Source: Desulfobacula sp. (lineage in GTDB: Bacteria; Desulfobacterota; Desulfobacteria; Desulfobacterales; Desulfobacteraceae). From it: 59,925 nt of DNA. Shown in pieces: positions 23,275-29,240 of the stretch. The stretch is taken from the NCBI GenBank assembly GCA_012031875.1, contig JAAUSZ010000004.1, positions 1-59,925 of the forward strand. The letters run 5' to 3'. The notes under the pieces were generated by a model. The model ran no database searches and was not told the DNA's origin. It saw only the letters and a program-made list of their open reading frames with translations. The translations under genes were made by a program, and so were the position numbers. The stretch's first letter is position 1, and the number at the start of each line of letters is the position of its first letter.

Positions 23275-26200
23275 GTGTTCAAAACCAAAAATTTGTTGTC
23301 GTGGAATAGCGCCATGAAATCACCCATGTCCATCCGCCTCTACCTGTCCCTCAAATTCGGCATTGTGGCCATATTACCGGTTCTCATCATTGCCGTGGTC
23401 ATCTGGCAGTTTCAAATCCCCCAGATGCGGACCCGGACGGAAATTCAGCAAAAGGGCATGGCCCGGGCCATTGCCGGCCAGATATCGGCCCATCTCATGG
23501 GAGGGCAGCGCCAATTGTCGGCTTTGGCTGATTATCTGAAACAGCAGGATCATTCCCAGTCGTCCCGGTTCTTTTCTCTGCTGGATTCACAATGCGGAGA
23601 GGGGAACCTCTTTGAGGCCATTTATATTACCGACTCCCAGGGCAACGGCATCACCGCCATCGGCCTGTCCGGCAGCAACCGTTCCAAGCGGGAGGACCTG
23701 ATGGGATTGGATCTGTCAGGCCGGAGCTTTATTCATCAGACCCGGGCCCCGGAAACTCCCCTCTGGTCGGAAACCTTTCTGTCCACCACCACCAGCCGAC
23801 TGGCCGTGGCCCTGGTCGTTCCGCTGGCCCACGACCTGATCATCGGTGAAATCACCCTGGACAAACTCTCCGAATTGATCCGTCTTTTGCCGGTGGAAGC
23901 AGGGCTGACCGTTCTGGTGCTGGACGGGCAGAACCGTGTGGTGGCGGATTCACAGCAGATCCGCCTGGGCCGGCAGGTGAATTTAAACCTTCTTCCCCGG
24001 ACGGATGCCCCGGAAAAGACCAGCTTTGCCGCAGGCTCATTGGATCTGGAGGGCAAGCCCTTTTTAGGAACGGTGGCGGATATTCAGGGGCTGGGCTGGA
24101 AAGTCCTGGTGGCCCAGTCCATTGAGGATGCCTATAAACCGATACGCTTTGCTTTTATCATGAGTGTTCTGGTATTGAGCGTGTCCCTGGCCTTGGCTTT
24201 GGCGGCAGCCGCCTTCCAGGCCGGCAACCTCTCCAGACTTCTCCGGTTTTATACCCAACAGGCCCAGGCCATTTCCCAGGGTAAATATGATTTGCAATGG
24301 CCCCCTTCTAAAACCGCCGAACTGATGAACCTGGGGCAAAGCTTTGACCGCATGGCCCAAGGCATCAGCCGGCGTGAAAAGGCCCTGGTGGAAAATGAAA
24401 CCCGCATGCGGATTACCCTGGATTCCATTGGTGATGCCGTGATTACCACCGATGATCACGGCCGGATCACCCGGATGAATCCCATGGCTGAAAAATTAAC
24501 GGGCCGGCCTTTGACTGAAGCCGCGGGCCGGCCCTTGCCCGAGGTATTCCGGATCATCAACGCCCACACCCGGGGACCGGTTGCCAATCCGGTTACAAAG
24601 GTTCTGGCCGAGGGAAAAATCATCGGTCTGGCCAACCATACCCTCCTCGTCTCCGGAGACGGGAACGAATACCAGATCGCGGACAGCGGAGCCCCCATAC
24701 GGGATACGGACGGGCAAATCGTCGGTGTGGTCCTGGTCTTCCGGGATGTCACCGAAACCTATGCCAGGGAAGAAAAAATACGGGAGAGTGAAAAACTGCT
24801 GAAAAACATCACCGCCAATGTTCCGGGCGTGGTCTATCAACTGAAGGTTCAGACCGGTTCCAAGCCCTCGTATACAGTGAATTATGTAAGTCCGAGGGCA
24901 TTGGAAATATTCGGCATTGAGGCCTGCCCGGAAACTTTTTTCAATGATTTTCTCCACTGCCTGCCCCCCCTTGACAAGGAAGGGTTTCTCAGTTCCGTCA
25001 CCGCTGCGGTTGACGGCCTCAGACCCTGGCGCTATGAAGGCCGGTTCGTTAAACCCCCGGGAGTACGCGTGTGGTTCTCGGGCCATGCCGGTGTCCGGAA
25101 AACCGGGAGGGATGTGGTATTGAACGGGGTCTTGATGGACATTACGGAGCGCCGCCGGATGGAAGAGGACCTCCGCATGACCCGGTTCAGCTTTGAAAAG
25201 GCCTCCGTCGGTATCTACCGCATCGGGTCCGATGCCCGGATCGTGGACGCAAACGAATCCGCGGCCCGGATCCTGGGGTATACCCGGGAGGAGATGAAAT
25301 CCCTGACCCTCTACGATATCGACCCCCATATCAAAGCCGAGGACCTGCCCTTGATATGGGAAAGACTCTGCACTCACAAAGTGGACCGGTTTGAAACGGT
25401 TCACCGCAAAAAGGACGGGGCAGAGATACCGGTGGAGATCACATCCAATCTGCTTGAATACGACGGCCGGAAATTCTCGATTTCCTTTGCCCTGGACATC
25501 TCCCACCGGCGGCAAGCGGAAAAGGAGGCCAAACGGTTGCAGGAGGCCCTGTCCCAGTCCCAGAAAATGGAGGCCGTGGGTACCCTGGCAGGCGGGATCG
25601 CCCATGATTTCAACAATATCCTTTCGGCCATGATCGGTTTTTCAGAGCTGGCCCTGGCCCGGACAGAGGCAGGCTCCCCCGTCCACACCCATTTACAAAA
25701 AATCCTCACGGCCGGTCTGCGCGCCAGGGACCTGGTCAGGCAAATCCTTATTTTCAGCCGCCAGGACGAACTCACGCTAAGGCCTTTAAAGGTCGGCCCC
25801 CTGGTGAAAGAAACCCTCAAGCTGCTGCGTTCGTCCATACCCGCCACCATTGACATCTCCCATGACATCCGGGAAGATATGGACCCGGTCATGGCTGATC
25901 CGACCCAGGTCCATCAAATCATCATGAATCTTTGCACCAACGCGGCCCACAGCATGGAAACCCAAGGGGGCCGGTTAACCGTCACCCTGTCCCGGGAGGC
26001 CCTTTCCAAGCAGGACAGCCGGTTGTATCCGGGCCTTTTGCCGGGCGATTATGCAAAACTCACGGTCCAGGATACCGGCAAGGGGATTCCTCCGGAACTC
26101 CTGGGGAAGATATTTGATCCCTATTTTACCACCAAGGAAAAGGAAAAGGGAACAGGACTGGGTCTGGCCGTTGTGGACGGCATTGTCCGAAGCTATGGAG

Positions 26201-26692
26201 GGGCTGTATATGTCTACAGCGAACCGGACAGGGGAACCACATTCAATGTCTTTCTTCCCATGGTAAAAGCAAAAATGACCGCTGAAAAAAATGAAATCCC
26301 CGAGCTGCCCACAGGAGATGAGCATATTTTATTGGTCGATGACGAACCCGCCCTGCTGGACGTGGGACAACAATTACTGGAACACCTGGGCTACCGGGTC
26401 TCAGCCGCCGTGAACGGCCAGGCAGCCTTGGATCTGTTCTGCCGGGCGCCGGGCCATTGATCTGGTCATCACCGATATGACCATGCCTGAAATGACCGGG
26501 GATAAACTGGCCGTGGAACTCTTGAAGATCCGGCCGGACCTGCCCATCGTCCTGAACACGGGATACAGCATGGCCATATCCACTGAAAGGGCTATGGAAA
26601 TAGGGGTCAAGGCCTTTATCTATAAACCCGTTGTCGAGGCTGAATTGGCCGGGACCGTCAGGGCCGTCCTGGACGAGGCCCGGCAGAAATAA
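23275..26692 (+). CDS. large hybrid histidine kinase (Cache, HAMP-like, multiple PAS, HATPase, REC), frameshifted near 26450
   Basis: AGGIAHDFNNILSAMIGFSELAL, DTGKGIPPELLGKIFDPYFTTKEKEKGTGLGLAVV, ILLVDDEPALLDVGQQLLEHLG; REC continues in +1 frame as DLVITDMTMPEMTGDKL. Confidence 0.9.
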
Positions 26693-26736: not shown

Positions 26737-27528
26737 ATGGGCAACATCATCCAGCAGGTTGATATCGCACGGATCAAAAATAATATAAAAACCCTGACCC
26801 GGGACAGTATCATTGACGAAGATATTCTGGACATTCATATCAACGGAAAAAAAACCTTTCAGATGGTGTTTTCCATGACCCATACCCCGGCCCTGGCCGC
26901 AGGATTTTTATTCACCCAGGGCATTGTCCGGGAAAAAGCCGACATCCTGGACCTGGTTTTCATTGAAGAGACAAAACAGTGCCGGGTCATCCTAAGGGAT
27001 TCCGCCCTGAAACGGCTGGATGAATTTAAAACCATGGGGTCCATCCGGGGTTCTTCCGGCGGGGCATTGCTTCAGAATCCGGGCCGGATATCCATCCCGG
27101 AGCGGACCCGGGACTTTTCGATCACCTATGACCAGGTATCTGCGTTGATCCGGATGCATGGGGATCATTCGGAGCTGTTTCACAAAACCGGCGCCGTCCA
27201 CAGCGCAGGGCTGTGTGACCCCCTCCATATCCTGGCCTATTATGAAGACATCGGACGGCACAACGCCCTGGACAAACTGGCCGGGGAAGTCCTGCTCAAA
27301 GGTCTCTTCACCGGGGACAAGGTCGCCACCCTGAGTTGCCGGATGTCCCTTGAAATCATCGGCAAAATCATCCGGACCGGCATCCCCGTCGTCATCTCCA
27401 ATGCAGCCCCTACCCTTTCCGCGGTCAGGCTGGCCGACCGGGCCGGCCTGACCCTCATCGGCTTTGCCCGGGACAGCCGGTTTAATATTTACAGTCATGA
27501 CGAAAGAATCCGTCCCGGCATTGTGTAA
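26737..27528 (+). CDS. fdhD: FdhD-family formate dehydrogenase accessory protein
   Basis: EDIGRHNALDKLAG, SCRMSLEIIGKIIRTGIPVVISNAAPTLSAVRLADRAGLTLIGFARDSRFNIYS. Confidence 0.88.
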   Translation: MGNIIQQVDIARIKNNIKTLTRDSIIDEDILDIHINGKKTFQMVFSMTHTPALAAGFLFTQGIVREKADILDLVFIEETKQCRVILRDSALKRLDEFKTMGSIRGSSGGALLQNPGRISIPERTRDFSITYDQVSALIRMHGDHSELFHKTGAVHSAGLCDPLHILAYYEDIGRHNALDKLAGEVLLKGLFTGDKVATLSCRMSLEIIGKIIRTGIPVVISNAAPTLSAVRLADRAGLTLIGFARDSRFNIYSHDERIRPGIV

Positions 27529-27609: not shown

Positions 27610-28773
27610 ATGAAAGCTTACCTCATCATGACCGGATTCATTCTCTCCTGGCTGGTTTCCCCGGAATCCCTGGCCATATCCGGCCGGATGGCCGGGCTCT
27701 CCGGCCGGATGGCCCTGGTTCCCCTTGCCGCGGCCCTGGGGCTGGCCGCTCTTTGCACCGCCCTGATCCATGACCGCAGATCGCCGGAAGGGCGGAATGA
27801 ATTGGCCTCCCTCTCTCCGGCCTACGGCAGGACCGCAGCCTCAGCCATGGTGATGACCGGCAGAATTCCCGTCCTGCTCTTTGCCTCCACGGCCATGCTG
27901 GTGTCGGCGGGGTTTGCCTTTAATGAAATCTTTGTCTACTGGTTTCCCAATTTTCTTTTTGCTTCCCTTTTGCTGGCCCTCGTCTGCGGCCTCCCCCTTT
28001 TCCATGAAAAGGCCGTATTATGGGGCCAGACCCTTTTTACCGGCATAGCCGTCCTCGGACTTCTGATCCTGATGGTCATGGGAATGGGCCGGGAAGGGCC
28101 GGAGGCGGCCGGTCCTGCTCCCTCCCTTTCCCGGCACCTTTTCGGCATGGCCTTCCTGCTCTTTCTCGGCTTTGATTTTTACCGGCCCGGAAACCAGAGG
28201 ATGCCGGCAGTCTACATCACTTTTGTCCCGGCCTTTGCATTGACGGCCGGATGGGTCCTGCTGGCCGTCGCACTTGTCCCCCTGCCCCGGCTTGCCGGAT
28301 CTTCCCTCCCCCATCTTCTGGTCGCCCGGGCCGCCGGAGGCGATACCGGAGGCTATGTGATCGGCGCCGTCATCATCAGCGGCGCCTTAAGCGGGGTGAA
28401 CGGGCTCCTTTTGGCCCTTCGAAGAACCCTTTCAGACCTTGCCGGGAAGCGGCTTCTCCCCAAAACCCTTGCTCAGGAGCGGCCTCCGGCGATTCTGGCC
28501 TTTATCCTGATCGAAACCATGATGATGGCGGGGGTGGCCGGCAATGAGAGGATTGATGCCATGGTCCGGGCCTCTCTCATTCTCTGGATGATATATCTGG
28601 GCCTGCGCTGTTTTGCCGCCCGGATCCAGGGGCAGGAATTCAGCCTCCCTGAAAAATGCTGCGGCAGCCTTGCCGCCGGATTGATTCTTTTTCTGGCAGG
28701 GGCGTTGATCATGGGCGACAGTGACTTTGGATACATTCTGCGGTTTCAGGTATCCGCCATCTCCTTTTTTTAG
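27610..28773 (+). CDS. APC-superfamily permease-like membrane protein
   Basis: About 10-12 hydrophobic segments across 387 aa. Confidence 0.55.
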   Translation: MKAYLIMTGFILSWLVSPESLAISGRMAGLSGRMALVPLAAALGLAALCTALIHDRRSPEGRNELASLSPAYGRTAASAMVMTGRIPVLLFASTAMLVSAGFAFNEIFVYWFPNFLFASLLLALVCGLPLFHEKAVLWGQTLFTGIAVLGLLILMVMGMGREGPEAAGPAPSLSRHLFGMAFLLFLGFDFYRPGNQRMPAVYITFVPAFALTAGWVLLAVALVPLPRLAGSSLPHLLVARAAGGDTGGYVIGAVIISGALSGVNGLLLALRRTLSDLAGKRLLPKTLAQERPPAILAFILIETMMMAGVAGNERIDAMVRASLILWMIYLGLRCFAARIQGQEFSLPEKCCGSLAAGLILFLAGALIMGDSDFGYILRFQVSAISFF

Positions 28774-28801
28774 TATTTTCATTGGTGTGGGCAAAAACCC
28801 A

Positions 28802-28817
28802 TGAAAGAATCTTTTCA
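28802..28817. promoter_or_regulatory. palindromic site TGAAAGAATCTTTTCA upstream of the rhodanese gene
   Basis: Exact reverse complement of the site at 32913-32928. Confidence 0.5.
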
Positions 28818-28844
28818 CAAAAAAATAAACAGGAGGAATGAACC

Positions 28845-29240
28845 ATGAAAAAACTTTTGGCAGGTTTGATTTTTGCCGTATTGATGATTTCCGGTACGGC
28901 ATCGGGCGATGAGGTCAGACTCCTTAACAAGGATGAACTCAAGGCCATGCTGGGAAACCCCGATCTTGTCGTGCTGGATGTCAGGGCGGGCAAGGACTGG
29001 AGTTCCAGTGAATTTAAAATCAAAGGCGCGGTCCGGCTGACCAATGACACCACGGAGGCGGTCATGAAAGACATTTCAAAGGACAAAACCCTGGTTTTTT
29101 ATTGCGCCTGACCCAATGAAGGCACCAGTGTCCGTGAGGCACGGAAATTCCTGGATCAGGGCTATAAAAACGTGTATGCATTAAAAGGCGGGTGGCGGGA
29201 ATGGTTCCGCAGCAAATACCCCCATGAAGAAAAATCCTGA
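28845..29240 (+). CDS. exported rhodanese-like selenoprotein with Sec encoded by TGA at 29109-29111
   Basis: Signal peptide MKKLLAGLIFAVLMISGTASG; VVLDVRAGKDWSSSEFKIKGAVRLTN; FYCA(U)PNEGTSVREARKFLDQGYKNVYALKGGWREWF; frame continues uninterrupted to TGA at 29238, 132 codons in total. Confidence 0.82.
29125..29144 (+). promoter_or_regulatory. candidate bacterial SECIS element
   Basis: CC A GTG U CC [GUGA] GG CAC GG: stem with bulged U and GU at the start of the apical loop, loop beginning 23 nt after the last base of TGA. Confidence 0.6.

Follow-up and report, generated by a model that had tools for sequence, protein, structure and literature searches.

Selenocysteine (Sec, U) is already catalogued in rhodanese-like proteins. 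The NCBIfam family NF041203 (rhodanese_LYCAU, rhodanese-related (seleno)protein) corresponds, in the accessible parts of two papers, to the "rhodanese-like form 3, CxU" with one Sec (PMC13188914) and to the "COG0607 form 2, CxU" (PMC9312934). No function of NF041203 was found in the accessible literature. E. coli GlpE and PspE, single-domain thiosulfate sulfurtransferases, represent the classical rhodaneses, while a further group of annotated proteins joins a GlpE-like domain with the loop YCACPNE to a DedA membrane domain. TsoB (rhodanese/DsbD-like, NF045694) is another selenoprotein with a rhodanese domain. Among transporters, AdiC, ApcT and BasC are the described proteins closest to the partner gene discussed below.

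Here we describe a rhodanese gene in a window of 59,925 nucleotides (the whole stretch of DNA that was analysed) from a metagenome-assembled genome (MAG) of Desulfobacula sp. Its product belongs to NF041203: it has the same length, the CxU motif and a single Sec, and the protein itself shows no difference from the family. What we regard as new are the linkage to an upstream transporter, the variants with two Sec residues (UxU) and the fusions to cytochromes, none of which we found described in the literature, including the accessible parts of PMC13188914 and PMC9312934. Our overall reading is that a SECIS element would guide Sec into residue 89 of an exported single-domain rhodanese that uses two chalcogens and works with a partner transporter. 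We give this reading a probability of roughly 0.6.

The protein differs from the other known systems in several respects. It shares the rhodanese fold with GlpE and PspE (28% identity to GlpE in a structural alignment), but it is apparently exported, and its CxUPNExTS loop is two residues longer, lacks Arg and holds a second chalcogen. It scores 46.5 bits with the GlpE equivalog model, whose cut-off is 102, and its C-A-U-P-N-E-G-T-S is not the classical CxxGxR/S-type loop with one catalytic Cys. The DedA/GlpE fusions have the same loop, but with Cys at the Sec position, and are only 26–37% identical. TsoB also occurs in related genomes (L191); in contrast to the window protein, it is a large membrane fusion with a UxxxxU motif, and the window protein reaches 35 bits with its model (cut-off 805). 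The partner transporter has the same predicted fold as AdiC, ApcT and BasC at about 15% identity.

Table 1. Features of the rhodanese locus, with positions in the window
Feature	Position	Strand	Remarks
Divergent APC-superfamily transporter (AdiC-like fold)	27610..28773	+	387 aa as read; from clustering, profiles and structural model
Shine-Dalgarno sequence AGGAGG of the rhodanese gene	28831..28836	+	8 nt 5′ of the ATG
Gene of the putatively exported Sec-rhodanese	28845..29240	+	131 aa including Sec89, then TGA stop
Probable signal peptide, about residues 1–21, MKKLLAGLIFAVLMISGTASG	28845..28907	+	hydrophobic N-termini in relatives
In-frame TGA, predicted Sec89	29109..29111	+	second residue of the CxU pair in the C87-A-U89-P-N-E-x-T-S active-site loop
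Core SECIS hairpin GUGUC-CGUGA-GGCAC	29128..29142	+	5-bp stem, 5-nt loop; conserved pairing

An interrupted rhodanese frame

A sequence-only reading of this DNA had claimed a single frame with a signal peptide and rhodanese motifs, interrupted by nothing except one TGA and truncated by standard gene callers to 88 residues. We found the same on re-reading. Codons 1–131 run from the ATG at 28845 to 29237 and are followed by the stop TGA at 29238–29240; the sole internal stop is the TGA of residue 89. The standard list of open reading frames indeed holds an 88-aa ORF at 28845–29111. Thus, automatic annotation shortens the gene to 88 aa, and the active site is lost.

Domain models do not stop at this codon. 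The Pfam rhodanese model PF00581 matches residues 29–121 with 57.9 bits (E 1.6e-15; gathering score 22.2 bits). NF041203 matches residues 9–130 with 176.2 bits when C is written for U, above its cut-off of 115 bits, and its (L/F)YCAU motif appears as FYCAU at residues 85–89. Since both matches span the TGA, chance readthrough is excluded. The predicted structure has a pLDDT of 88.9, with low confidence for residues 1–20, and its closest Foldseek matches are rhodanese folds, including E. coli GlpE (TM-score 0.73/0.87).

Conservation of the TGA codon

In the 80 best relatives from public bacterial genomes, the column of residue 89 holds TGA in 78 cases, TGT in one and TCC in one. A search of 145 related genomes gave relatives of 38–55% identity with a TGA inside the matched region; in the relatives that were extracted (38–64% identity, independent assemblies) it falls in the same column. 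Genomes of the same genus contain the same TGA-carrying gene. By name, the carriers belong to Desulfobulbaceae, Desulfobacterales, Syntrophobacteraceae, Desulfarculales and Nitrospiraceae, and they include cultured strains with complete genomes, such as Desulfosarcina alkanivorans (NZ_AP021874) and Desulfosediminicola flagellatus (NZ_CP050698). In a phylum-wide sample, 61 of 395 genomes had a member above the NF041203 cut-off, and the match usually contained one TGA. Cys occupies the Sec position in the distant annotated DedA/GlpE rhodaneses. The sequence-only reading had pointed to homologues aligned at residue 89, and both Sec relatives and Cys forms were found there.

Two further observations concern gene copies. 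One locus (L096, G093:C104) carries a tandem pair of Sec-rhodanese genes, each with a TGA and a hairpin of its own. Elsewhere (L083–L092, L095), paralogues resembling NF041203 carry Ser, Ala or Thr where Sec would stand, and in several of these there is an insertion after the motif.

The Sec pathway is present in the MAG (4.95 Mb, 357 contigs, 87% complete, 6% contamination). We found selA (606 bits) and selB (356 bits), both above cut-off, a tRNA-Sec with anticodon UCA, and selD; all lie on contigs other than that of the rhodanese. The set of selA, selB, selC and selD named by the sequence-only reading is therefore complete, with selD read in two pieces, since it is interrupted by a TGA and then shifts to another frame. 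In the selD region (G000:C260:3381-4306; L102, L103), the TGA lies near the N-terminus, as in a Sec-containing SelD, and the frame changes shortly after it.

The TGA could also be a true stop, in a pseudogene or in the gene of an 88-aa protein, or a normal Cys codon that was misread in sequencing. The assembly does have frame problems in selD, in the receiver of a histidine kinase and at the end of the partner transporter, which speak for such an explanation. Against it, the same TGA column recurs in dozens of independent assemblies, complete genomes included, conservation at the protein level continues 3′ of the TGA, and the SECIS element described below shows synonymous covariation. On the grounds of conservation we reject sequencing error and pseudogene, and we see next to no chance for this explanation as a whole. 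The conserved TGA column, the Cys homologues, the SECIS element with its synonymous compensation and the complete Sec pathway of the MAG together argue that the codon is almost certainly read as selenocysteine and that the gene encodes a genuine selenoprotein, as the sequence-only reading had proposed.

A hairpin downstream of the UGA

We aligned 60 distinct Sec genes without gaps from the UGA. In this alignment, positions 20–24 pair with positions 30–34, and all five pairs are formed in 57 of the 60 genes; these counts are uncorrected for relatedness, which the recoding and slide controls address in part. After 500 synonymous recodings with the codon usage of the family, at most 7 of the 60 genes were fully paired (mean 1.8). 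When the register was slid by 1–3 nt, this held for at most one of the 60. Pair 21/33 is T-A in 47 genes and C-G in 10, and both of its members are third codon positions. The loop base at position 26 is G in all 60.

The window copy has its G at loop position 2, and its loop starts 21 nt after the UGA. According to the accessible parts of PMC13188914, the bSECIS model has a loop of 3–9 nt, a stem of 4–16 bp, a distance of 16–37 nt from the UGA, a G within the first two loop positions and an MFE of at most −7.5. The window hairpin falls within these bounds with its loop CGUGA, 5 bp, 21 nt and −11.9 kcal/mol over 45 nt. The minimum-energy form of the window copy is a 6-bp hairpin, UCCGUG-AGG-CACGGA, at 29131–29145. 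Taken alone, the window copy is unremarkable in stability (z −0.4 to −1.4), and the RNA downstream of the UGA likewise gave modest z values against synonymous recodings (mean about −1.1). The case for the SECIS element thus rests on the hairpin seen across the alignment.

One Desulfatitalea MAG (L120) has TGT at the Sec column and keeps all five hairpin pairs, as would be expected of a recent change from Sec to Cys. No Rfam family matched, and PADLOC gave no result.

Two chalcogens in the active site

In 42 rhodanese relatives, D45, R47, Y86, C87, residue 89 (with U counted as C), E92, T94, S95, G106 and parts of LKGGW are invariant. C87 is Cys or Sec in every Sec member that we examined. The first Cys is also kept in most of the Ser, Ala and Thr forms.

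The sequence-only reading had placed the TGA on the catalytic Cys. This is one of two options. The HMMER alignments disagree, and the canonical nucleophile could correspond either to C87, with which the catalytic Cys of GlpE is aligned, or to U89, with which the Cys of 6mxv is aligned.

A number of relatives have UGA at both positions and thus a YUxU motif (L045, L050/L193, L059, L065, L070, L172, L177, L188, L189 and L190). These are spread over several families and Nitrospirota. The existence of such UxU relatives suggests that both C87 and U89 may be reactive and that both are chemically used.

We propose the following mechanism. SelB, guided by the SECIS element just 3′ of the UGA at 29109, would insert Sec at residue 89. 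The sulfane sulfur of a persulfide, polysulfide or similar compound in the periplasm would first be taken up by C87 or U89. The other chalcogen would then attack this sulfur and either release sulfide or hand the sulfur on; the resulting C87-S-Se-U89 bond could be reopened by a reductant in the periplasm. On this proposal, the protein would be a redox handler of (per)sulfides rather than a classical thiosulfate:cyanide sulfurtransferase. For a two-chalcogen redox mechanism with a selenenylsulfide between C87 and U89, we see even odds from the sequences.

A simpler possibility is a classical sulfurtransferase of the GlpE/PspE type, in which Sec merely replaces the catalytic Cys and forms a perselenide (Se-S), with C87 being structural or only resolving. 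This would agree with the gap-free alignment between U89 and the Cys of 6mxv, a rhodanese of Francisella, and with the loop U-P-N-E-G-T-S, which counted from U89 is as long as C-Y-H-G-N-S-S of GlpE. However, the catalytic Cys of GlpE itself falls on C87, which immediately follows a strand ending at residue 86, and the constancy of C87 among the Sec members makes a bystander role improbable. We regard the classical mechanism as unlikely, although it is the strongest of the competing explanations, and keep the two-chalcogen mechanism as the working model. In either case, the CxU/UxU pair offers a simple system in which to ask why a rhodanese would need selenium.

A predicted transporter directly upstream

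One neighbour of the rhodanese recurs: at 44 of 74 loci, a gene in the same orientation immediately upstream encodes a membrane protein of about 430 aa. The 74 are those of the 80 with at least 1.7 kb of upstream sequence; 43 cases came from ORF clustering and one from tblastn. The second commonest neighbour family occurs at 12 loci. The linkage spans Desulfobacterota and Nitrospirota, with 24–38% identity to the window copy. When the transporter profile was run against 145 genomes, the match lay beside a Sec-rhodanese in all 15 top-scoring genomes. Weaker matches (at most 166 bits, five in one genus) were not adjacent to a rhodanese and look like another APC subfamily.

The window copy is below every Pfam and NCBIfam cut-off. 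Of 33 transporter members, 7 match PF13520 (AA_permease_2) at E ≤ 0.1 (best 9.3e-19); the window copy is not one of them. The transporter profile finds the structures of ApcT (E 1.6e-9), AdiC and LAT/xCT, and the AlphaFold model (pLDDT 92.8) resembles AdiC in Foldseek with a TM-score of 0.79. The subfamily has the signature FNExxxYWFPNFxFA. A weak match to an S-methylmethionine permease (E 0.003) was not taken as an indication of the substrate. Exact peptide patterns of the transporter gave no match in viral contigs, and we found no paper that combines rhodanese, selenocysteine and amino acid permease.

As read, the transporter of the window ends at the TAG at 28771, by a run of seven T near 28764, while a C-terminal helix like that of its homologues, FLVFSLVWAKTHERIF, appears to continue in another frame and to run to a TGA that closely precedes the ATG of the rhodanese (28700–28845). 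This is likely a frameshift near 28764, either an assembly error or a real one.

The two genes might be neighbours by operon hitchhiking, with a rhodanese as described above and no shared function. About 40% of the relatives have no adjoining transporter, which shows that the rhodanese can work without it and favours hitchhiking, as do the other architectures of some relatives (fusion to DedA or to a cytochrome). Yet the linkage reaches across Desulfobacterota and Nitrospirota, with the transporter gene always immediately preceding the rhodanese gene in the same orientation, and every top-scoring member of the subfamily found in the 145 genomes lies next to a rhodanese. Hitchhiking therefore appears rather improbable to us, and the linkage and the fold point to a functional module of Sec-rhodanese and transporter as the favoured, if far from certain, explanation. 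In such a module, the APC-fold transporter would carry the substrate or the product, an amino-acid-like compound of sulfur or selenium, through the inner membrane.

The cargo could also be selenium itself. The exported rhodanese would then bind or reduce a selenium compound, and the permease would import it for Sec synthesis. In the cited literature, rhodanese substituted with selenium is considered as a protein that might deliver Se, and the ext cluster of Geobacter, with the rhodanese-like ExtH, has been implicated in selenite/tellurite reduction (PMC5877670). On the other side, the recurrent neighbours include no selenium-metabolism genes, Cys, Ser and Ala versions exist, and only the 61 genomes of the phylum sample mentioned above have a member over the cut-off. 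A role in selenium handling is thus doubtful, even more so than hitchhiking.

Fusions of relatives and the site of action

Five loci (L187, L188, L189, L190 and L193) encode a Sec-rhodanese with a C-terminal cytochrome c domain containing eight CxxCH motifs. This octaheme domain resembles hydroxylamine oxidoreductase (HAO; PDB 6h5l, E 6e-24; PF13447), and four of the five have UxU. In L194 and L195, an FYCTU rhodanese is fused to DedA; these proteins are Sec counterparts of the DedA/GlpE fusions. A literature search for rhodanese and octaheme brought up only a selenoprotein review and the Geobacter ext paper, and, judged by title and abstract, one for rhodanese fused to a multiheme cytochrome brought up no relevant paper.

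The octaheme fusions speak for a location in the periplasm and for redox chemistry. From the hydrophobic, signal-like N-terminus of most relatives and the fusions to periplasmic-type multiheme cytochromes c, we infer that the Sec-rhodanese is exported, in line with the secreted protein of the sequence-only reading.

We lean towards the view that these genes form an undescribed two-gene module of Desulfobacterota and Nitrospirota. It would consist of a dedicated, unassigned APC-fold permease and an exported selenol/thiol rhodanese, which together would process and transport a sulfur (or selenium) compound of the periplasm. Elsewhere the rhodanese is joined to DedA or to an HAO-like octaheme cytochrome, and in some lineages its active site has UxU. 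It is worth stressing that the transporter linkage and the octaheme fusions provide a testable context for such a module, namely periplasmic sulfur/selenium redox in sulfate-reducing and related bacteria.

Other genes upstream

The transporter gene is itself closely preceded, in the same orientation, by fdhD (formate dehydrogenase accessory sulfurtransferase, 26737–27528), which is absent from the recurrent neighbour families of the rhodanese relatives. The window also encodes a histidine kinase of the dCache-PAS type; another frameshift divides its receiver domain between two frames (23275–26460 and 26477–26692).
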